From Nitrospirota bacterium (GTDB lineage: Bacteria; Nitrospirota; Thermodesulfovibrionia; Thermodesulfovibrionales; UBA9159), in contig JAJYIF010000028.1 in the NCBI GenBank assembly GCA_021790195.1, positions 1 to 40,682 on the forward strand: 40,682 bases of DNA, in the 5' to 3' direction. The stretch's first letter is position 1, and each line of letters opens with the position of its first letter. The notes below the pieces were generated by a model, which ran no database searches, was not told the origin of the DNA, and saw only the letters and a list, made by a program, of their open reading frames with translations. A program made the translations under genes and the position numbers. Below are positions 5,011-17,018 of this stretch, piece after piece.

Positions 5011-6315
5011 TCAGAATGTATATCCGCTTTCCCCGTGCTGGCTCACGTCGAGACCGTTGACCTCGTCTTCCTCGGATGTCCTCAGGCCCATCAACGCATC
5101 GATAAGCTTCAGCAGGACCACACTGACCACAAAAGAATATGCGCCGACCACGAGGATCGACTCGACCTGTACGACAAATTGATGGCCGTTTCCGAAGAAC
5201 AACCCGTCGGCCCCGGCAGGGTTTATCAGCTTTTGGGCGAGAAGGCCCGCGCCGAGGGTCCCCAAAATGCCGCCCACGCCGTGGACACCGAAGGCGTCAA
5301 GCGAGTCATCATAACCGAACTTTCCTTTCAGATTCAGCGCGGCATAACAGACCGCTCCGGCCGCGATGCCAATGGCAAACGCAGACATCGGACTTACGAA
5401 ACCCGAGGCAGGCGTAATAGTCGCAAGTCCTGCTATGGCTCCTGTGGCTGCGCCGAACATAGTGGGCCTTCCCCGGTGCACCCACTCGATAACAGCCCAT
5501 GACAGTGTCGCCGAAACCGCCGCTATATGAGTAGCCACGAACGCCATTGTGCTGAGAGCGCCGGCAGAGAGAGCGCTTCCTGCGTTAAAGCCGAACCACC
5601 CGAACCACAAGAGGCCAGCGCCAAGCACGGTCATAGGCAGGTTGTGAGGCATTATGATCTCGTGCATATAGCCTTTGCGTTTGCCGATCACAAGGGCCGC
5701 AGCGAGGGCGGAAATTCCGGACGTGAGATGGACGACCACGCCACCCGCAAAGTCCAGGACCCCCATATTCTTCAGCCATCCCCCCTGGCCCCAGACCCAG
5801 TGAGCAACCGGGTCATAGACAATCGTGGACCACAACAGGGTGAAAAGCATGAAGGAAGAAAACTTCACCCTCTCCGCAAACGCGCCGGTTATAAGCGCCG
5901 GGGTAATAACGGCAAACATTGCCTGGTAGATCATAAAAGCAATATGCGGGACCGTCGCGGCATAAGCGGCATTCGGCTCTATCCCCACCCCCCTTAAGAA
6001 GGCCCAATCAAGGCCGCCTATGATGCCGTGAATGTCCGGACCGAAGGAGAGGCTATAGCCGAAGAGCACCCACTGCACACTCACCAGCGCTATCGCCACA
6101 AAGCTTTGCATAAGTGTTCCGAGGACGTTCTTTCTTCTGACCATCCCGCCGTAGAACATCGCAAGCCCCGGCGTCATCAGCATGACAAGGGATGCGCATA
6201 TCAGGACAAAGGCAGTGTCTCCGGCGTCTATCTTCCCGGTGGTCTGGGCAAACCCGCTCGCGGGAAAGGCGATCAGGCAAAGCATTGAATACAAAGCAAT
6301 TTTCCATTTTTTCAT
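5011..6315 (-). CDS. amt: Ammonium transporter Amt (copy 1)
   Basis: 434 residues with a signal-peptide-like start (MKKWKIALYSMLCLIAFPASGFAQ) and 11 predicted membrane helices. The twin-His conduction pair is present in DFAGGVVVHLTSG and DAFGVHGVGGILG, and the phenylalanine-gate neighbourhood looks normal. It conducts ammonium across the inner membrane. ATG 6315 is chosen because AGGAG sits 8 bases upstream; an in-frame start at 6336 adds seven residues. A sigma-54 element (6354-6369) and three CTACATTTTTGTAG palindromes lie upstream, so it is probably induced by nitrogen limitation. Unusually, no glnK is next to it. Confidence 0.95.
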   Translation of the reverse strand: MKKWKIALYSMLCLIAFPASGFAQTTGKIDAGDTAFVLICASLVMLMTPGLAMFYGGMVRRKNVLGTLMQSFVAIALVSVQWVLFGYSLSFGPDIHGIIGGLDWAFLRGVGIEPNAAYAATVPHIAFMIYQAMFAVITPALITGAFAERVKFSSFMLFTLLWSTIVYDPVAHWVWGQGGWLKNMGVLDFAGGVVVHLTSGISALAAALVIGKRKGYMHEIIMPHNLPMTVLGAGLLWFGWFGFNAGSALSAGALSTMAFVATHIAAVSATLSWAVIEWVHRGRPTMFGAATGAIAGLATITPASGFVSPMSAFAIGIAAGAVCYAALNLKGKFGYDDSLDAFGVHGVGGILGTLGAGLLAQKLINPAGADGLFFGNGHQFVVQVESILVVGAYSFVVSVVLLKLIDALMGLRTSEEDEVNGLDVSQHGESGYTF

Positions 6316-6353
6316 AAACAGGCTCCTCGCGCGCAATAGATTGAGCTCGCTTC

Positions 6354-6369
6354 TGCGAAGAACATGCCT
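6354..6369 (-). promoter_or_regulatory. Sigma-54 promoter of amt1
   Basis: The minus strand reads AGGCATGTTCTTCGCA, with GG and GC separated by exactly 10 bases as in the -24/-12 consensus TGGCACGNNNNTTGCA. The predicted transcription start is near 6343, 28 bases before the chosen ATG. Confidence 0.65.
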
Positions 6370-6421
6370 GATGAAGCTTATTGATTTTAAAAGACTTTTT
6401 GACAGAACCCCATGGACGGAG

Positions 6422-6523
6422 CTACATTTTTGTAGCCTTCCGCTGCCTGGACGTCCTCATTTACATTTAGAAACGCTGGCTTCGACGATTAGCTACATTT
6501 TTGTAGGAGCTACATTTTTGTAG
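6422..6523. promoter_or_regulatory. Three enhancer-type palindromes CTACATTTTTGTAG upstream of amt1
   Basis: Identical 14-base sites lie at 6422-6435, 6493-6506 and 6510-6523. Their centres are about 86, 157 and 174 bases upstream of the predicted sigma-54 start, the range in which enhancer-binding activators act. The last two are 17 bases apart. Variants of the same palindrome precede three other promoters in this window. Confidence 0.72.
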
Positions 6524-6548
6524 GTCGTTCAAAAGACAATAGGCTGTC

Positions 6549-6615
6549 GGTCAGTGTCGGTGTCAGAATGCCTGATATATTACCAACAACACTGACATAA
6601 TCACCGACACTGACC
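6549..6615. repeat. Perfect 14-base inverted repeat after amt2
   Basis: GGTCAGTGTCGGTG (6549-6562) and CACCGACACTGACC (6602-6615) are perfect inverted copies, with an inner TGTCAG/CTGACA pair (6561-6566 and 6592-6597). It begins 7 bases beyond the amt2 stop. It can act as a terminator-like or boundary hairpin and stylistically resembles the arms of the S23 cassettes. Confidence 0.7.
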
Positions 6616-6622
6616 CGATCAC

Positions 6623-7978
6623 TTAAAAGTTGTATGCCTTCTCGCCGTGCTGGCTCTCGTCGAGACCGCTCATCTCGTCCTCGACGTCCACCCTGATTCC
6701 TACTACGACCTTAATGATCATAAATATTACTAAGGTCATTACACCGCTGTAGACCACGGTTGTGGCCACTGCTATGAGTTGTGTCAGCAGCTGGCCGGGA
6801 TTGCCGTAAAGAAGCCCCCTGCCCGCCTCATTGATCGCCGGGTCAGCAAAGACTCCGGTGAGGATTGCCCCCAGCATCCCGCCGATCCCGTGAATGCCGA
6901 AGGCGTCGAGCGTATCGTCATAGCCGAACAAGGGCTTGAGCTTGGCAACTGCGAAAAAGGGCACGATGCCCGCGACTATGCCGATGACGATGGCGCCGCC
7001 GATGTTTACAAAACCCGCAGCAGGCGTCACCGCTACGAGACCCGCCACCGCGCCGGAGGCAAGACCGAGGACCGTCGGCTTCTTTGAATGTACCCACTCC
7101 GTCACCATCCATGAGAGCGCTGCAGCGGCCGTAGCAGTATTCGTATTGATAAAGGCGGCCCCAGCCAACCCGTTTGCCGCCACCGCGGAACCCGCATTGA
7201 AACCGAACCACCCGAACCAGAGAAGGCCGGCGCCTGTAACTACCAGCGTCAGGTTGCCGGGCAAGATCGCTTTCTCACGCCGCTTCCCCAGGACCAGGGC
7301 GCCGACAAGGGCCGCGACGCCCGCATTGACATGAACGACTGTGCCGCCCGCAAAATCCAGGGCCCCGAGTTTAGCAAGAAAACCTCCTCCCCACACCCAA
7401 TGCGCAACAGGAACATACACGAGAGTCATCCATAATACCGTGAAGATTACCCAGGCGGAAAACTTCATCCTTTCGATGTACGCGCCGCTTGCAAGCGCAA
7501 CAGTAATCGCCGCAAAGGTGAGCTGATAAACGATATATACGAATTCCGGAATCGTCTTTGCCAGGTCTGTAATGCTGTTAGTGCCGACCCCGCTCAGAAA
7601 GAGTTTGGCAGGACTTCCGATCACGCCACCGATATCGCTGCCGAACGCCAGCGGATACCCGTAAATGACCCAGAGGAAACTGACGATACAGAAGGTCACA
7701 AAGGTCATGGCCATCGTATTGAGTGAGTCCTTGCGCTTTGCGAGACCGCCGTAAAAAAGCGCAAGCCCGGGAATCGACATGAGCATGACAAGAGCTGTGG
7801 CCACTATCATCCAGGCCGTGTCGCCAGTGTCGATCTTAGGCGCAGGCTGGACAGCGGAAGGGCCTGCCTGCTGAATACCTGCCGGGGACGGGGCTGCCGG
7901 CTGTATCTCTTCGGCAAGAGCCAGTCCCGCCATGCCCAGGATGCTCAACAACAATACAAAGCTTACGAACCTTTTCAT
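6623..7978 (-). CDS. amt: Ammonium transporter Amt (copy 2)
   Basis: 451 residues. A signal peptide ([24 protein letters not shown]) is followed by a Pro/Gln/Ala-rich linker of about 30 residues and then a full Amt core. The twin histidines are in [13 protein letters not shown] and [16 protein letters not shown] 7978 has GGAGG 7 bases upstream; the in-frame start at 7996 is less likely. The gene follows the small DNA-binding protein HTH1 by 87 bases on the same strand and has no clear sigma-54 element of its own, so the two are probably co-transcribed from the HTH1 promoter. It is similar to copy 1 and more distant from copy 3. Confidence 0.95.
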
Positions 7979-8065
7979 CTCAATCCTCCTTATCATCCTT
8001 TACCTATAATCTTTCCAGAATTCAAGACCGATAACAATCAGACTTATTGACCTACTTGACCTCTT

Positions 8066-8260
8066 TCACCTTCTTAGCCTTTCAGTAATCGCCGTCCCCT
8101 CCTCTTTTTTCAGCCCGTACTTCTTTATCTTGTAACCTATCATCCTCTCGGTGATCCCGATCATCCTCGCCGCCCTCGCCATGACCCAGTCGCATTCCCG
8201 CAGGGCATGGAGTATCTCCTCTTTCTCTATCTCCCTGATCTTCTCCTTCAGCGATCCCAT
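8066..8260 (-). CDS. Stand-alone NtrC/NifA-type Fis helix-turn-helix protein (HTH1)
   Basis: 64 residues, essentially one HTH_8 (Fis-type) domain. EEILHALRECDWVMARAARM followed by GITERMIGYKIKKYGL matches the C-terminal DNA-binding helices of sigma-54 activators (pattern A-L---GW--A-AAR-LG-T-R---Y-I-KYGI). There is no receiver or GAFTGA-bearing AAA+ domain, so it cannot itself open a sigma-54 promoter. ATG 8260 is chosen because the predicted sigma-54 start (8271) falls downstream of the alternative TTG 8275. By my count it shares 40 of 64 residues with HTH2 and has the same length. It leads the amt2 operon and has the CTACAnTTTTGTAG sites upstream, so autoregulation is likely. Confidence 0.85.
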   Translation of the reverse strand: MGSLKEKIREIEKEEILHALRECDWVMARAARMIGITERMIGYKIKKYGLKKEEGTAITERLRR

Positions 8261-8281
8261 TGCGGTCACCAACAATTATGT

Positions 8282-8297
8282 AGCCATAATCATGCCA
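8282..8297 (-). promoter_or_regulatory. Sigma-54 promoter of HTH1-amt2
   Basis: The minus strand reads TGGCATGATTATGGCT, with GG and GC 10 bases apart; the -24 half is near perfect. The predicted start is at 8271, 11 bases before ATG 8260. Confidence 0.7.
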
Positions 8298-8342
8298 AAC
8301 CGGACTTGCTTGTTTTTCAAGAGTATTTTCGTAAGGGAAGCG

Positions 8343-8387
8343 CTACAATTTTGTATTTAATACAATTATGTAGCACTAATTTTGTAG
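8343..8387. promoter_or_regulatory. Enhancer-type palindromes upstream of HTH1-amt2
   Basis: CTACAATTTTGTAT (8343-8356) and ATACAATTATGTAG (8360-8373) are two good sites 17 bases apart. CACTAATTTTGTAG (8374-8387) is a third with a degenerate left arm. Centres are about 79, 96 and 110 bases upstream of the predicted sigma-54 start. Confidence 0.68.
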
Positions 8388-8437
8388 AAGATAGGTAACG
8401 AGAGACTATCTCACACAAGTAAGCGCAGGCAGACCGG

Positions 8438-9595
8438 CTATCTGATCTTCCTGATTTGAAGCAGTCTTCCGAGAGCGAGCGCTATCAGGGCCGCACTGAA
8501 GCTCAATATCGCCCCCATCCTGGCGGCGCCCTGAACAACAGGGTCCGAGAAGGCCTCTCCCGCAATAAACAGGGCGACAGTGAAACCTATCCCGGCTATG
8601 ACGCTTACAAGGAGGAGGTCCTTCGCTTTCATGCCGGAAGGGAGAGGAAAACCGGATTTCCGGGCGACGGTGCCGAGAAAGAAGATGCCCCCGATCTTCC
8701 CCACGAGAAGGGAAACAAAGACGAGCCATGTCGCAGTGCCCGCAGAAGAAAAGGCCACTCCCGAATTGGCAAGTCCGAACATGAAGAGACCGAAGTCCAC
8801 GATCACCTTCCACTCGTGCTCGAACCTCGAAAGGGCGGAACGGTCTGCGACATCCTCCTCGAAGAAACGCTTGCTCTCGCGACTGGCGTGAGGCAGAAAC
8901 GGTATGATGAAGACCAGCGCCAGCGCCGGATGAAGGTGTGACTTGAAGAGACCCGTCCAGCTCAGACCTCCGCCGATAAGAACATATGGCCAGTAATTGA
9001 GGACCTTGCGGCGCTTCATTATAAGCGCCATCAGCACGCCGGCAGCCGTGAGAAGCAGCCAGGCCGACTGCGGCGGGACCCTTGGGTCCGGATAGAAGAG
9101 AGCAATAATCGCAAGGCCTATGCCGTCATCGGCGACCGCGAGAAGGAGGAGAAATGATACAGCCGGATGACGCTCTCCGAAAATGGCCTTTGCCACGAGC
9201 CACGCAAAGGCAATGTCCGTGGCCGTAGGGATGCCCCACCCGCGACGCAAAGTGTCGGAGCCTATAAAATGGTTCAAGACGAGATAGACGACCGCCGGAC
9301 CGAGCACTCCCCCTAGTGTGGCCAACAGCGGGTTCACCGCCTTCCCGGGCGGGTTAAGATCTCCTCCGGGAAGACAGCTCTGCGTTATTTCCACTGCGGC
9401 GATCCCGAAAAAGAAGACCATGAAGATGTCATTTGTCACGAAGTGGAAACTAAGGCGTCCGAAGAAATGGTTATAGAGAAACCTGGAATAGTTCTCCGGC
9501 GAGAGGTTCGCCCAGACCAGCGCCACAGCCACTCCAAGCACAAGCGGGACGGAAAACTCCCGCATAAGGTCTATTCTCTGTCTCACCTTGGTCAT
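8438..9595 (-). CDS. nhaA: Na+/H+ antiporter NhaA family
   Basis: 385 residues, about 11 membrane segments. The diagnostic NhaA stretch GIPTATDIAFAW is followed by LLAVADDGIGLAIIALFYP, with the adjacent Asp pair that binds Na+ or H+ in the family. The C-terminal part has GIGFTVALFIAGEAF. It exchanges sodium or lithium for protons at the inner membrane. It lies downstream of amt3 after 272 bases and upstream of the HTH1 enhancer sites. Amt-linked antiporters may help balance charge and pH during ammonium uptake, but this is only context. The start has a poor ribosome binding site. Confidence 0.9.
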   Translation of the reverse strand: MTKVRQRIDLMREFSVPLVLGVAVALVWANLSPENYSRFLYNHFFGRLSFHFVTNDIFMVFFFGIAAVEITQSCLPGGDLNPPGKAVNPLLATLGGVLGPAVVYLVLNHFIGSDTLRRGWGIPTATDIAFAWLVAKAIFGERHPAVSFLLLLAVADDGIGLAIIALFYPDPRVPPQSAWLLLTAAGVLMALIMKRRKVLNYWPYVLIGGGLSWTGLFKSHLHPALALVFIIPFLPHASRESKRFFEEDVADRSALSRFEHEWKVIVDFGLFMFGLANSGVAFSSAGTATWLVFVSLLVGKIGGIFFLGTVARKSGFPLPSGMKAKDLLLVSVIAGIGFTVALFIAGEAFSDPVVQGAARMGAILSFSAALIALALGRLLQIRKIR

Positions 9596-9867
9596 GTCTT
9601 GAGGCCGTTTCTAGATAAGGAATACTGAATTATACTTATAAAATCTTTGCGAGTCGACAGTCTTGAAGGACAATACATGGGCGGCGCAACAGGCGACGGC
9701 TGGCAGGCCTTGCCTGCTCAGCCGCTTGACAAGGAGGGTTAGGTAACGCCTGTCATCCGGCGTTTGTTCGGGACGCCGGAACCGATATACCTCTTAATCT
9801 AAATATATCCCAAATAGGACCGATGTCAATCGCAGACCGCCGCACGGCTCTTTCTTCCATCCTCGCT
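9596..9867. other. Intergenic region between amt3 and nhaA with two hairpins
   Basis: No gene seen. CCGGCGT/ACGCCGG (9757-9779) forms a 7-base-pair hairpin and CGGCTGGCAGGC/GCCTGCTCAGCCG (9697-9724) an imperfect 12-base-pair one. Neither is followed by a clear U tract on the minus strand. They may terminate or attenuate amt3 transcripts before nhaA. Confidence 0.4.
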
Positions 9868-11136
9868 CTACCTGCGCGTTTTAAGACTGAAGTCCGGATA
9901 TGCCGTGACAGACACTTCGTTCTGGTCCAGTCCCTCGAACTCCACCTCTTCCGAAACCCGCAGCGGGACTATCTTATCCAATGCCCTGAAAAACAGATAC
10001 ATAACCACAAAGACAAAGGCAAAGCTCACGGCAACACCGACTACCTCGGCCAGAAGCTGTGAAGAGTCGCCGTAAAAGAGTCCCCTCACCGGCCCGCTGA
10101 CGCTGTTAAGTCCGTCACCGCAAGTGCCGTCGGCAAAGAGACCAAGGGCCATCATTCCCCAGGCGCCTGATGTGGCGTGAACAGACACTGCCCCGACCGG
10201 ATCGTCAACCTTCAATCTTCTCTCAACAAAGAAGACGCTCGCGCAACAAAGGGTTCCTGCGACAAGTCCTATAATAACCGCCCCGCCGGGCCCCACAAAT
10301 GCACAGGGAGCCGAAATGGCGACAAGTCCGGCGAGCAGGCCGTTCGCCGAGAGCGAAAGGTCCGGCTTCCGGTAAAAAAGCCACATATAACACATCGCCG
10401 AAAAGCAGGCTGCAACACCCGCGAGCACAGTATTAGTTGCTATCAAGCCGATCCTCATATCGCCATACGCAAAGGCTGAGCCGGAATTGAATCCGAACCA
10501 CCCGAAAAAAAGTATCAGACACCCGACGACGGCCATCGGGACATGGTGCCCCGGAATTGCGTTGGGTGTTCCGTCGGCCTTGAATTTTCCCATTCGCGGA
10601 CCGAGGGCGACCGAGCCCGCAAGCCCTGCGATGCCGCCGGCCATGTGCACCACGGATGAGCCCGCGAAATCTATGACGCCGTGACCCAATCCAAAGTCCC
10701 GGCCAAGCCTGGACAGCCAGCCCCCGGACCATACCCAGCCTGCATAAAGCGGATAAGTCAGCGTCGAGAAAAAAAAGCCGTAGACGACAAATGACCTGAA
10801 CGTCCAGCGCTCGGCCATGGCCCCGATAGGGATGGTAGCCGCGATGCTCATCAAAACGGCCTGCCGCAGAAAGAGCGCGTCAACAGAGACATCCGGCGCC
10901 GTGCCGGTGAGAAAAAAAACCTTGCCCCCTGACTGAAGGGCATAGCCGGCAGCCCAGTAACCGAGCATAGTGAATACGAACACCGTCATATTCATCGCCA
11001 TGGTATGTCCGGCATTTTTTGATCTCGTGAAGCCGGTCTGCATCATCGCAAAGCCTGCCTGCATAAGAAAGACGAGAAAAGTGCAGATAAGGCTCCAGAT
11101 AAGATCGGGCGTGAGCGCGCTATGGTCTGCCGTCAT
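9868..11136 (-). CDS. amt: Ammonium transporter Amt (copy 3, divergent)
   Basis: 422 residues from ATG 11136; ATG 11139 adds one Met. The SD-like GGGAAGGGAG precedes both, and the start overlaps the stop of the small transporter gene (TGATG), so translation is coupled. The twin histidines remain (DFAGSSVVHMAGG and GAVSVHATSGAWG), but surrounding motifs differ clearly from copies 1 and 2. There is no signal peptide, and the N-terminus is ALTPDLIWSLICTFLVFLMQ. This points to a distinct Amt subfamily. It is a bacterial ammonium channel of the inner membrane, expressed from the sigma-54 promoter upstream of its partner gene. Confidence 0.93.
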   Translation of the reverse strand: MTADHSALTPDLIWSLICTFLVFLMQAGFAMMQTGFTRSKNAGHTMAMNMTVFVFTMLGYWAAGYALQSGGKVFFLTGTAPDVSVDALFLRQAVLMSIAATIPIGAMAERWTFRSFVVYGFFFSTLTYPLYAGWVWSGGWLSRLGRDFGLGHGVIDFAGSSVVHMAGGIAGLAGSVALGPRMGKFKADGTPNAIPGHHVPMAVVGCLILFFGWFGFNSGSAFAYGDMRIGLIATNTVLAGVAACFSAMCYMWLFYRKPDLSLSANGLLAGLVAISAPCAFVGPGGAVIIGLVAGTLCCASVFFVERRLKVDDPVGAVSVHATSGAWGMMALGLFADGTCGDGLNSVSGPVRGLFYGDSSQLLAEVVGVAVSFAFVFVVMYLFFRALDKIVPLRVSEEVEFEGLDQNEVSVTAYPDFSLKTRR

Positions 11137-11459
11137 CATACTCCCTTCCCGAACTGGATTATCATCGCGCCGCAGATGATAACGCTCAAGCCGAGCCATG
11201 TGGCCCTCGGTATGACCTCATCGAATACAAAACGTCCGAACAACACGCTCACCGCCGCGAAGACAGCCACATAGACACCCAGCAGTTTCGAAAAGTCCCA
11301 CTTCAACGTATTCACCACCACTCCATACGAGCCGAGCATGACGCATCCCGCCAAAACAATCGGCAGTCCGCTCCCGCGAAGCCCTTTTCTCACCACGGCA
11401 TCGCCTCCCACCTCCAGGAGCGCCGCACCGATAAATATAAGCCAGGTAATAAACGTCAT
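11136..11459 (-). CDS. Small four-helix membrane protein of the EamA/SMR (DMT) type
   Basis: 107 residues with four hydrophobic helices, including WLIFIGAALLEVGGDAVVRKGL with an in-membrane Glu and a C-terminal WLGLSVIICGAMIIQFGK. This is the layout of the small multidrug-resistance or half-EamA proteins in the drug/metabolite superfamily, which work as dimers. The substrate is unknown. It is directly coupled to amt3 by a TGATG overlap and shares its sigma-54 promoter, so a role in amine, ammonium or osmolyte transport is plausible but inferred. Start ATG 11459 has GGAG 8 bases upstream. Confidence 0.75.
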   Translation of the reverse strand: MTFITWLIFIGAALLEVGGDAVVRKGLRGSGLPIVLAGCVMLGSYGVVVNTLKWDFSKLLGVYVAVFAAVSVLFGRFVFDEVIPRATWLGLSVIICGAMIIQFGKGV

Positions 11460-11556: not shown

Positions 11557-11589
11557 CTACCAAAATGTATCTCGCTGACAATAATGTAG
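11557..11589. promoter_or_regulatory. Two enhancer-type palindromes upstream of the small transporter-amt3 operon
   Basis: CTACCAAAATGTAT (11557-11570) and TGACAATAATGTAG (11576-11589) lie 19 bases apart. They are weaker versions of CTACAnTTTTGTAG. Centres are about 77 and 96 bases upstream of the predicted start, matching the spacing at HTH1 and HTH2. Confidence 0.58.
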
Positions 11590-11621: not shown

Positions 11622-13418
11622 CTAATGCGCGGTCCCGCGGTGAATTATAAGCAGGACCAGAAGGGCCAGGACAATAAGAGGGACCGCTACGGCCAATGCT
11701 ATCCAGGCCGCCTTCCTCCAGCCCCGCTTCCATGGGGAAGGGACCTGAAGCCGGTCGCACCGCCCGGTCAATTGCACGGCGGCCGGATTGTCCAGCTCCG
11801 TCTTCAGCTCTGCCGCCGTCTGATAGCGGCTCCGGGGCTCCCGCTCCATCGCGTGGAGGATGATCTCCTCGACCTGCGGCGAGACCTTCGGATTGCGCTT
11901 GCGCGGGGCCGCCGGGTCGCCGGTGACGCGCGCGTTCATGACCGCAAACGGGTTGTCCCCCTCAAAAGGCACTACCCCAACCACCATCTCATAGAGCATC
12001 GCCCCGAGACTGTAAATGTCTGTCCGGGCGTCGCCCCGCTTCCCCCTTACCTGCTCGGGCGCCATATAATCGGGTGTGCCTACGGCAGGCGTGAAGCCGG
12101 TGAATGTTATGCGCCTTCCGGCCCCGGCCCTCGCAATGCCGAAGTCCATGATCCGTATCGTGCCGTCGTAGCAGATCATGACGTTCTGCGGCTTCAGGTC
12201 CCTGTGGACGACTCCCTGCCCGTGCATGTAGGCCAGGGCCTCGCAGATAAGACCCGCCAGCTTGAGCGCGTCTTTTTCGGGCATCGGCCGGACGTTGTTC
12301 AGGAGATATGAAAGCGTATAGCCCCGGAGATATTCGGTCACTATATAAGGGCGGCTGCGCTGCTCCTCCTCCACGGGGATGAACCTCAGGATATAGGGAT
12401 GCTCCAGGCGGAGTCCAATCTCCTGCTCGCGCTGGAAACGGGAGTAGAAGCCTGGGTCGCTTTCGAACTGCATGAGCGGGACCTTAACAGCCACGGTCTG
12501 CTTCGTCTTCAGGTCCGTTGCCTTGAAGATAGTAGCCATGCCGCTCCGGCTTATGGTTTCGAGGATAAGGAAACGGTTGTCCAGTGTCTGACCGGGGCGG
12601 AGCTCATATTTTGTAGTCGGGTCCGCAGACTCCTGATACATTGCCACACCTCGATACAAAGCCACCTTCTCGACATCGTTGATCTGGAGGACCTGGACCG
12701 AGAGATTGTCGTCGGTCCCCCGCTGCTCGGCCAGAGCTACGAGCTGCCGGCAGGCCTGGGCCGGTGAAAGTCGCGACACAATGTCGGCTATCTCGCTGTC
12801 GGCGACATGCGCATACAGGCCGTCGGAACAAAGCACGACCTTGTCACCCTTGAAGACCGTCGCGTTCTCCACGTCGACCCGGATGACCGGCTCATGCCCG
12901 ACGCTTCGCGTAAGTATGGAACGCTTGTCGCTCGCCTTTGCCTCCTGCTCTGTGATCAGCCCGAACTTCTGCTGCATTCCGGTATAGCTGTGGTCCGTCG
13001 AAAGTTGTTTGATCGTCGCCTTGCGAACGAGATAGACCCGCGAATCTCCGACGTTGCCTACTGTGATTTCATTGTTACGGAAGACAACTATGGAAAGGGT
13101 CGTGGCCATACGAGCCCTGCCCCCCTCCTCCGTCCTCTTGTCGTATACCGCAAGATTGGCCGCATTGAACATCTGAGTTATCAACTGCTGGGCTGACTGC
13201 TCTCCGCGGGCTTCACGGAATGTCTTCAAGGCGGTTTCCACAGCGAGGCGGCTGGCCACTTCTCCGCGATCCAACCCGCCGACTCCGTCGGCCAACGCGG
13301 CTACCGCCCCGCGACTGCGCTTTTCCTCCAGCGCTTCGGGCTGCCAAAAGCCCGTGAAATCCTCGTTGTTCTCCCGCGCGGGACCCGGAGATGAAAGCTC
13401 AGAGTATGTCAGTTCCAT
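11622..13418 (-). CDS. PP2C-type phosphatase fused to a membrane-anchored Ser/Thr protein kinase
   Basis: 598 residues. Residues 1-245 are a PPM/PP2C phosphatase (ENNED at 16-20, ADGVGG at 43-48, GDSR at 124-127, DNLS at 237-240). Residues 275-545 are a Hanks-type kinase: VAVK lysine near 312, HRDLKPQN at 404-411, DFG at 425-427, APEQ near 454. The glycine loop is degenerate (ISRSGMATIF). A single membrane helix near 570-590 follows a basic stretch, leaving both catalytic domains in the cytoplasm. It could set and remove phosphate on shared targets. It lies between the APC-porin operon and amt3; a role in controlling transport is only suggested by position. Confidence 0.92.
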   Translation of the reverse strand: MELTYSELSSPGPARENNEDFTGFWQPEALEEKRSRGAVAALADGVGGLDRGEVASRLAVETALKTFREARGEQSAQQLITQMFNAANLAVYDKRTEEGGRARMATTLSIVVFRNNEITVGNVGDSRVYLVRKATIKQLSTDHSYTGMQQKFGLITEQEAKASDKRSILTRSVGHEPVIRVDVENATVFKGDKVVLCSDGLYAHVADSEIADIVSRLSPAQACRQLVALAEQRGTDDNLSVQVLQINDVEKVALYRGVAMYQESADPTTKYELRPGQTLDNRFLILETISRSGMATIFKATDLKTKQTVAVKVPLMQFESDPGFYSRFQREQEIGLRLEHPYILRFIPVEEEQRSRPYIVTEYLRGYTLSYLLNNVRPMPEKDALKLAGLICEALAYMHGQGVVHRDLKPQNVMICYDGTIRIMDFGIARAGAGRRITFTGFTPAVGTPDYMAPEQVRGKRGDARTDIYSLGAMLYEMVVGVVPFEGDNPFAVMNARVTGDPAAPRKRNPKVSPQVEEIILHAMEREPRSRYQTAAELKTELDNPAAVQLTGRCDRLQVPSPWKRGWRKAAWIALAVAVPLIVLALLVLLIIHRGTAH

Positions 13419-13540: not shown

Positions 13541-15463
13541 TTAGACTTTGCCGTTCAGCAGAGCTTCCCTCGCCTCGCTGCTGACCAGTATCTTCCTGCC
13601 CTTGGCCTTGCTGGTCTTAAGGAAGTAGAAGGCCCCGTAAGCACCCCACGCAGCACAAAAGGCGAGCGCTATGTAAGGCTCCTTCCAGCTCATGCCCGCC
13701 ACTGTAAACGGCCCGACCAGGTAAAAGAGCATGATCACAAGGTTAGCAAGCAGACCGAGGACCGGGACAACCAGGTGTTTGAACCCGTTAAAACTGTGGT
13801 GTTCCTTGAATGCCACCATCGCTATCAGACAGGTGATCATGTAAAGCATAAAGGTGCCGAAGTTGCTGATCAGAGTCATGATGACGAGCGTGTTGGGCAG
13901 CTTTGTATAAGTCTCAGGAGAGAAGATGCCGATGCTGTACCAGAAGTTGTGTTTGTCGAGAGGCGCCGGCACCGACGACTGTCCACCCATGTAGCCCAAC
14001 ACAGTCGCTATGCCTATGATTGCAGAGATGACGGCAAGGGTCCAGATCGCCCGGTACGGAGAGGCCGTCTTCCCGTGAAGCATGCCGAAGTGTGACGGCA
14101 CCTCCTCATCCCGTCCCATTGCGTAGGTAACGCGCGCCCCTGTGCTCAGACAGGAGAGCGTGGTGCCTATCAGCGCCAGAAAGACCGTAAAGGCCTGAAC
14201 CAGCATGAACGCCTTCCCTGCGGCATAGCTGCCGAAGAGCCACGTTCCTGCGATGACCATCATATCACCGATAGGCGCGCCGGAGGCCCCGGCGTTTGGC
14301 ATGGTGTAGCCGTTGTGGAGCATGTAGTTCGCCGCGAAATACTCGATCAGGTAACAGAACGTTCCCTGAATCGCCAGAGAAAGAAGGACTGCGCGCGGAA
14401 TGTCTTTCTTGGGCCGCTTCGCCTCTTCGCCCATCGCGGTTACCGACTCGAAGCCGACCAGGATCAGGATGGCGATGGCCGCCTGAATGAAGATGAAGTT
14501 GAACCCGTGAGGGGCGATGACGGAACCCGCAGTCGAATGGTAATTGAAGACCGGGTTGCCTTTATCGTCCTTTGTCATCGCTCCATCCTTATAGTCGACG
14601 GTGAAGGGGGCGGCAAGTTTCGGGTCGGACACGGCCTTGCCGTCCTTGTCCGCCGGCACGGGATTGCCGTCTTTGTCCTGCGCGTCCTGCATCTGATAGA
14701 CCGGCTTACCGTCCTTATCAATGGTCGGCTTGCCGCCGGCATCCAAAACAGGTATGGGATTTCCCTTTTCATCCTTTTGAGGCTCCTGGGCCACCTGGTA
14801 ATTTACCGCTATTCCGTTTGAAAGATGGAACCCGGTCGAGCCCTGCGGATGCTGTATGCGATAGCCGATGGCGATCACCGAAAACACAAGGAGGGCCGAA
14901 ATCTGCACTATGTTTATCACAACGTTGACCGCCGTTGTTCCGGTCACGCCGCGATAGGCGATATAGGCGACTCCGAGTGCAAAGACGACGCAGAAGAGCC
15001 ACATAAAGATCGGGCTGTTATATGTGCCGCTGAAGGTGTCCGGCAGAAACTGGCTCAGCAGGAAACCTCCGAGAATGGCGGTCACACCGACCATAACGCC
15101 CGGGTAGACCCAATAGTATAGATGACTCGCCCATCCTGTAACGAACTTGGCAAGCCGGGCGAACTTGTATGCGCGCGTCTTCGAGAGAAACGCCTGCTCG
15201 GCATAGAGATACGAGGAGCCCGGTCCCGGATATAGCTTCGAGAGCTCCGCATAACTGATAGCCGTGGCAAAACAGAGCAGGAGCGCGAAAAGGATGCCGA
15301 ACCACATGGACATGCCTGCCATTGGAGCTCCGTAAAGAGACTGCATTTGAAACGTCAGCCATAAGAAGGCCCCCGGCGCTATCAGGGCCATTGCGTTCAT
15401 CGTCAGACCCGTTATTCCAAGGGTCCCTCTGGTTACCTCGGATGAATTTGTTTTTTCAGACAT
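13541..15463 (-). CDS. APC-superfamily amino acid or amine permease with a long hydrophilic insert
   Basis: 640 residues, longer than the usual 450-500. The N-terminal glycine-rich helix TLGITGLTMNAMALIAPGAF and SKLYPGPGSSYLYAEQ are typical of amino acid/polyamine/organocation carriers. After about six helices there is an insert at roughly 205-318 rich in Asp, Lys, Gly and Pro, with repeated KDGKPV / KDGNPV units. It is predicted to face the periplasm or cytoplasm between helices. The start is supported by GGAG 8 bases before ATG. It is the third gene of HTH2-porin-APC, so it likely imports an organic nitrogen source under the sigma-54 regulon. The substrate is not readable from sequence. Confidence 0.88.
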   Translation of the reverse strand: MSEKTNSSEVTRGTLGITGLTMNAMALIAPGAFLWLTFQMQSLYGAPMAGMSMWFGILFALLLCFATAISYAELSKLYPGPGSSYLYAEQAFLSKTRAYKFARLAKFVTGWASHLYYWVYPGVMVGVTAILGGFLLSQFLPDTFSGTYNSPIFMWLFCVVFALGVAYIAYRGVTGTTAVNVVINIVQISALLVFSVIAIGYRIQHPQGSTGFHLSNGIAVNYQVAQEPQKDEKGNPIPVLDAGGKPTIDKDGKPVYQMQDAQDKDGNPVPADKDGKAVSDPKLAAPFTVDYKDGAMTKDDKGNPVFNYHSTAGSVIAPHGFNFIFIQAAIAILILVGFESVTAMGEEAKRPKKDIPRAVLLSLAIQGTFCYLIEYFAANYMLHNGYTMPNAGASGAPIGDMMVIAGTWLFGSYAAGKAFMLVQAFTVFLALIGTTLSCLSTGARVTYAMGRDEEVPSHFGMLHGKTASPYRAIWTLAVISAIIGIATVLGYMGGQSSVPAPLDKHNFWYSIGIFSPETYTKLPNTLVIMTLISNFGTFMLYMITCLIAMVAFKEHHSFNGFKHLVVPVLGLLANLVIMLFYLVGPFTVAGMSWKEPYIALAFCAAWGAYGAFYFLKTSKAKGRKILVSSEAREALLNGKV

Positions 15464-16703: not shown

Positions 16704-16898
16704 TTAAACGCTTTGACGCTCGATATAAAGCAGTCTCTCCTCCTTTCTTATGCCGTATTTCCTGATCTTGTACCCCATCATCCTTTCTGTGATACCGAGC
16801 CTCCTTGCGGCCCTGGCCATAACCCAGTTGCACTCTTCCATCGCATGGAGTATCTCCTCTCTCTCCAGATCCTTGACCTTATCCCTCAATGAACCCAC
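16704..16898 (-). CDS. Stand-alone NtrC/NifA-type Fis helix-turn-helix protein (HTH2)
   Basis: 64 residues, a single HTH_8 domain: EREEILHAMEECNWVMARAARRLGITERMMGYKIRKYGI, with the recognition-helix region ITERMxGYKIxKYG the same as in HTH1. By my count 40 of 64 residues match HTH1. The start is GTG 16898, overlapped by an out-of-frame ATG at 16900; AGGAGG lies 4 bases before the GTG. It heads the porin-APC operon behind a near-consensus sigma-54 element and two palindromes. No receiver or ATPase domain is present. Likely roles are repressor or competitor of a full activator at the same sites, or a DNA-bending accessory. Confidence 0.85.
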   Translation of the reverse strand: MGSLRDKVKDLEREEILHAMEECNWVMARAARRLGITERMMGYKIRKYGIRKEERLLYIERQSV

Positions 16899-16924: not shown

Positions 16925-16940
16925 TGCCAAAACCGTGCCA
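16925..16940 (-). promoter_or_regulatory. Sigma-54 promoter of HTH2-porin-APC
   Basis: The minus strand reads TGGCACGGTTTTGGCA, differing from TGGCACGNNNNTTGCA at only one defined position. The predicted start is at 16914, leaving a 16-base leader containing AGGAGG. Confidence 0.82.
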
Positions 16941-16985
16941 TTCTTAAACCCGTTGATTTTGCAGAGAAGCTCCTAAAATAAACTA

Positions 16986-17018
16986 CTACACTTTTGTATT
17001 CCTGCTACCATTTTGTAT
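16986..17018. promoter_or_regulatory. Two enhancer-type palindromes upstream of HTH2
   Basis: CTACACTTTTGTAT (16986-16999) and CTACCATTTTGTAT (17005-17018) are 19 bases apart. They are centred about 79 and 98 bases upstream of the predicted sigma-54 start. Confidence 0.68.

Follow-up and report, generated by a model that had tools for sequence, protein, structure and literature searches.

What can the DNA-binding domain of an activator do when it is encoded alone, at the head of an ammonium transporter operon? The question is raised by gene HTH1, found in a stretch of 40,682 nucleotides from a Nitrospirota bacterium (contig JAJYIF010000028.1), which is called here the window. HTH1 lies on the minus strand (8066-8260, with the ATG at 8260 and the stop codon included) and is translated as MGSLKEKIREIEKEEILHALRECDWVMARAARMIGITERMIGYKIKKYGLKKEEGTAITERLRR, a protein of 64 residues. 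The gene directly downstream is amt2 (6623-7981, minus strand; PF00909, TIGR00836), in agreement with an earlier note on this DNA which had placed HTH1 at the head of an ammonium transporter operon.

A NifA-related HTH_8 protein and its family

The sole Pfam match of HTH1 above the cut-off was HTH_8 (PF02954), covering residues 8-48 (E 8.6e-14) and passing the gathering cut-off with 51.4 bits against 22. HTH1 is a complete Fis-type HTH with little besides, and the earlier description of it as an HTH with no regulatory or ATPase domain holds. The AAA+ sigma-54 interaction domain (PF00158) is absent from its 64 residues in the Pfam search, which means that HTH1 is not a sigma-54 activator, and no AAA+ or receiver domain adjoins the gene, a promoter region being found upstream instead. 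The top NCBIfam match was the HTH end of TIGR01817 (nifA), at 37.2 bits and far below the full-length cut-off of 528.85, so that HTH1 is not a NifA equivalog.

The AF2 model, computed with 87 homologues, has three confidently predicted helices (residues 4-22, 27-34 and 38-48; mean pLDDT 85.5), of which the first is long. Foldseek found the nearest solved folds among the DNA-binding domains of the NtrC class, including NtrC4, and in Fis, whose HTH_8 domain is presumed to be of activator origin; the E-values were weak (best 4.6e-3), as is usual with a chain of this length. In the sequence comparison the nearest chains were 2m8g (1.5e-15) and then the NifA structure 9qq6 (6.3e-11). HTH1 is not a member of the Fis family, since its model has no N-terminal extension of the Fis kind in front of the HTH and its setting is an amt operon, not dusB-fis. 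Among the activators of its own genome it is nearest to the HTH of NifA, which places it in a NifA-related HTH lineage.

About 100 homologues were found, short like HTH1 and forming their own clade across Nitrospirota; we refer to them as orphans. Of 140 genomes sampled from the order, 69 have such a homologue, counted as a short open frame. Outside the order, homologues exist in further orders of the class and in a few more classes, some of the matches there being full-length activators. A scan of named genomes gave 80 loci, and the titles of almost all of them read Nitrospirota, Nitrospirae, Nitrospiraceae or Thermodesulfovibrionia. One genome (G340) contains six matches to the orphan profile, at least one of them full length. 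The short ORF, the motif G-I-T-E-R-M-I-G-Y-K, a sigma-54 promoter and ACA-N4-TGT sites define the proposed Nitrospirota amt-operon orphan family, and HTH1 has all of these.

The operon is conserved as well. Among the 60 orphans with at least 2.6 kb of downstream sequence, 50 have an amt gene on the same strand within 2.5 kb (44 with glnK too) and four have a permease in its place, which answers the suggestion of the earlier note to look for HTH_8-only proteins beside amt genes in other genomes. The gene between orphan and amt often resembles an outer-membrane barrel, with a Pfam assignment for the porin of the window only. At one locus (L117, 5001-5808) a tandem pair of orphan HTH genes stands ahead of a permease.

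Differences among the homologues reach 0.54 at the third codon position, against 0.21 and 0.17 at the other two, and in this sequence comparison the pattern is that of purifying selection on the orphan gene. In a tree the orphan HTHs stood apart from those of NifA (support 0.81), although the alignment has 44 columns and the tree resolves nothing beyond that split; a single leaf is misplaced (L099), and it resembles the end piece of a NifA truncated at a contig edge. The short ORF and the draft assembly might suggest a spurious reading frame or, as the earlier note had warned, a fragment of a broken activator, but given some 100 short homologues, the codon-position pattern, the separate clade and the conserved promoter and operon we see practically no chance of this.

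Promoters and palindromes

HTH1 and amt2 are preceded by a sigma-54 -24/-12 promoter, TGGCATGATTATGGCT (8282-8297, minus strand). The same element type, searched for as strict TGGCAH-N7-GC within 75 nt of the start, precedes 77 of the 98 orphan genes, where shuffled sequences gave a mean of 0.16. Two TACAWWWWTGTA sites lie before HTH1, and the palindromes which the earlier note had seen in its promoter are indeed there: the proximal one reads GCTACAATTTTGTA on the plus strand (8342-8355), with 47 bp between the end of its core and the -24 box, and the distal one reads GCTACATAATTGTA on the minus strand (8361-8374), 17 bp from the proximal palindrome. An additional, operator-like ACA-N4-TGT core is located directly downstream of the -12 element (8272-8281), where a bound protein would, given the position, block the polymerase. 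Such a core was found after the -12 element in one of 77 orphan promoters, HTH1 of this genome only, and a conserved operator over the -12 box was discarded for this reason.

The gene amt1 (5011-6315, minus strand; PF00909) has its own sigma-54-like promoter, AGGCATGTTCTTCGCA (6354-6369, minus strand), and three copies of the palindrome CTACATTTTTGTAG (6422-6435, 6493-6506 and 6510-6523). A second orphan HTH_8 protein identified with Pfam, HTH2 (16704-16898, minus strand), is 63% identical to HTH1 and heads a cluster composed of a beta-barrel porin (PF07642; 15538-16653, minus strand) and an amino-acid permease (Pfam; 13541-15463, minus strand). Its sigma-54 promoter is TGGCACGGTTTTGGCA (16925-16940, minus strand), with two palindromes before it (16985-16998 and 17004-17017). 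The distance from core to -24 box is 47 bp at both HTH1 and HTH2 and 54 bp at amt1, where the sigma-54 element is weaker. Tandem degenerate palindromes, 19 bp apart, are also found (11559-11587) upstream of a small gene (11136-11459) that precedes amt3 (9868-11139).

Within 6.5 kb (5011-11459) the window holds three ammonium transporter genes and an NhaA antiporter, and further on a single protein (11622-13418) in which a PP2C phosphatase domain is fused with a Ser/Thr protein kinase domain. The third orphan of the genome, HTH3, is on contig 53, where kdp genes are followed by HTH3, a P-II (glnK-like) gene that overlaps it and a porin similar to that of the window (L053, 6377-8133). No palindrome was found at HTH3, and its recognition helix is divergent (Q-W-I).

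Exact TACAWWWWTGTA occurs six times in the whole genome, against once for the reversed-pattern control, and all six sites are upstream of genes, three at amt1, two at HTH1 and one at a NifA-like gene. When one mismatch was allowed, GCTACANNTTTGTA gave 12 sites in the 3.3 Mb genome, of which seven are in the window, upstream of amt1, HTH1 and HTH2. A wider palindrome regulon was rejected, the remaining near matches being at control level and the one examined lying inside a coding region. A search with the pattern TTGTAGNNCTACAA gave no result, and no RNA elements were found with Rfam.

The same arrangement is seen across the family. ACA-N4-TGT cores are present upstream of 92 of 98 orphan genes, with 179 sites in total where mononucleotide shuffles predict 4.3, and they form sharp peaks at -55 to -57, -74 to -76 and -87 to -89 relative to the -24 box. 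Tandem pairs are rigid, 18-19 bp apart. The full extended flank is carried by 71 of the 179 sites, and between proximal and distal sites no difference in flank was found. The amt upstream regions of the sampled genomes without an orphan are devoid of TACAWWWWTGTA, with the exception of a single TACA-N4-TGTA at -385, whose spacer is GC-containing.

A NifA-type activator and the nif promoters

The earlier note had assigned the HTH to the NtrC/NifA type, and it is the NifA half of this assignment that stands. Of the 20 true sigma-54 activators of the genome, a NifA-like protein on contig 26 (L054, 8696-10228, minus strand) is the only full-length one whose HTH matches the orphan profile (E 1e-10), and with 601 bits it exceeds the TIGR01817 cut-off of 529. 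NtrC was rejected as the reader of the palindromes: in a scan of ten activators the best NtrC-like protein was below the NtrC cut-off and its recognition helix is unrelated. A split activator, in which an HTH-less activator would be the partner, was likewise rejected, as the activator without a Pfam HTH match has an HTH of its own. No nifH was found in this genome, despite its NifA-like activator. Such an activator is retained in 10 of 11 orphan-carrying genomes without nif, this one included.

The spacing of the sites points in the same direction. In most cases the core nearest to the -24 box is 44-48 bp away from it in orphan genes, a rigid spacing of about 46 bp, and 53-58 or 66-69 bp away at nifH. 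These distances differ by steps of about 10 bp, so that the sites face the same side of the helix, as would fit a single activator for both kinds of promoter. Since the nifH promoters of relatives share the core about one helical turn further out, NifA is likely to activate both nifH and the orphan-amt promoters.

The two proteins differ at defined positions of the recognition helix, which is T-E-R-M-I-G-Y-K in the orphans (E in 97/99, M in 92/99) and T-P-R-Q-I-G-Y-K in NifA (Q in 28/29). Their presumed sites differ too. In orphan-carrying genomes the nifH sites usually consist of the bare ACA-N4-TGT core, often twice and 20 bp apart. Extended TACA-N4-TGTA is found at nifH in 13 of 18 orphan-less genomes against four of 40 orphan genomes (G011, G067, G106 and G139), G059 being placed in the orphan class; the statistic (Fisher p 4e-6; p 0.002 at genus level) is suggestive rather than conclusive, because the orphan-less genomes are largely from two families, several are incomplete and ancestry is not fully corrected for. 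A suggestive reading is that the orphan recognizes the outer bases and that its presence at nifH is selected against, from which this difference would be expected. We also observed that nifH loci of this order (L181-L201, L261-L300) commonly have two ACA-N4-TGT palindromes exactly 20 bp apart, and that the classical TGT-N10-ACA is contained between them.

At nifA itself an ACA-N4-TGT palindrome is present near the start codon, mostly at about -32, in 10 of 22 orphan genomes against none of seven others, a weak difference (p 0.06). No strong sigma-54 element was found upstream of nifA. Several genomes have TTTACA within this palindrome and, about 17 bp further on, TTAAAC; the two together are possibly a sigma-70 promoter with the palindrome over its -35 box.

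Proposed role and comparison with known systems

The protein and its family, the operon, the promoter, the positions of the sites and the differences in helix and flank can be read directly from the sequence. A NifA-type activator probably drives the sigma-54 promoters of HTH1-amt2, amt1 and HTH2-porin-permease, by way of ACA-N4-TGT palindromes whose helical phase is fixed. The orphan, as the first product of the operon, would then bind the extended sites (C)TACA-N4-TGTA(G). An AAA+ domain is required to activate sigma-54 polymerase; having none, the orphan could not open the polymerase and would compete with the activator or replace it at the extended sites, and perhaps also sit on the palindrome over the nifA promoter. 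The outcome would be negative feedback on the ammonium-uptake operons, with the nif promoters left alone.

We infer from this architecture that the orphan binds DNA, that NifA binds at the amt promoters and that the effect is negative, and we give an even chance to the orphan being a NifA-derived competitor which represses ammonium-uptake operons, perhaps nifA, and spares nif. Competition is the simplest account because the core sites are shared, the recognition helix is changed and the extended flank is avoided at nifH. The earlier note had proposed such a competitor with feedback: the core shared with nifH sites and the flank avoidance are circumstantial evidence in its favour, and the bending or helper role which the note had also named is a less probable reading. 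As to binding, the isolated DNA-binding domain of another NifA binds a nifH UAS, but weakly (at 20 uM), and in solution it is a monomer; domains of this class that have an extra helix A dimerise stably (PMC10590331). A stand-alone domain can therefore bind, maybe weakly unless the long first helix aids dimerisation.

The orphan could instead raise amt expression: like Fis, this small protein would bend the DNA at the tandem palindromes or bring in the activator there. Its predicted fold matches the DNA-binding domains of Fis and NtrC4, pairs rigidly spaced at 18-19 bp can accommodate a NifA dimer beside an orphan dimer, and DNA bending is known for Fis and NinH (PMC7166090). Nevertheless exclusion is a simpler idea than cooperation when the core is that of the presumed NifA sites, the extended flank is avoided at the nifH promoters of orphan genomes, and proximal and distal sites show no difference in flank, so that we consider a positive helper rather unlikely.

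It is a quite improbable variant that the orphan acts in a hetero-complex rather than by binding DNA alone. NifA-class activators bind palindromes as dimers (PMC10590331), R, Y and K of the recognition helix are common to both proteins, and the long N-terminal helix is predicted in the orphan, but the separate recognition code (E and M against P and Q) and the flank preference suggest that it reads its sites independently.

NifA or another activator might also be the sole reader of the palindromes, with the orphan binding elsewhere or serving something unrelated, such as signalling with GlnK or Amt. The nifH of orphan-less genomes carries the same extended palindrome, which means that a full-length activator can read it. 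We judge this decidedly improbable, as the recognition helix of the orphan is nearly invariant and the palindrome is found at amt promoters where an orphan is present and is absent from the orphan-less genomes tested.

If the orphan is the competitor proposed above, a conserved, promoter-specific protein of this kind would correspond, in bacteria, to dominant-negative partial transcription factors, flanking bases would be able to separate the targets of one activator, and the retention of NifA-like proteins in Nitrospirota without nitrogenase genes would be easier to explain. No description of a NifA-related, amt-linked, promoter-specific HTH_8-only protein with a distinct site was found in the open-access literature, to which the search was confined.

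Bacterial proteins with an activator-type HTH_8 and nothing else are mainly familiar as nucleoid proteins, and with Fis and NinH as stand-alone proteins of this type the kind itself is already known. NifA (TIGR01817) resembles the orphan in an HTH about 52% identical on average, in the recognition residues R-I/L-G-Y-K and in the target core ACA-N4-TGT, whereas the orphan is without GAF or AAA+, has T-E-R-M in place of T-P-R-Q, tends to the extended flank and heads amt operons. The NtrC1/NtrC4-class DNA-binding domains (2m8g, 3e7l, 4l5e) are the closest solved folds by sequence and structure, but are parts of full activators. NinH of phage lambda is a small Fis-like HTH protein, which dimerises and bends DNA (PMC7166090); unlike the orphan it is a phage gene, connected neither with sigma-54 promoters nor with nitrogen. 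Fis, the nucleoid-associated protein of E. coli, has been noted as a stand-alone HTH_8 domain of presumed activator origin (PMC7166090) and is similar in fold (Foldseek TMq about 0.67), but it is longer, abundant and binds degenerate sites, whereas the orphan has few and strict sites, an amt operon setting, a sigma-54 promoter and a sequence nearer to NifA.
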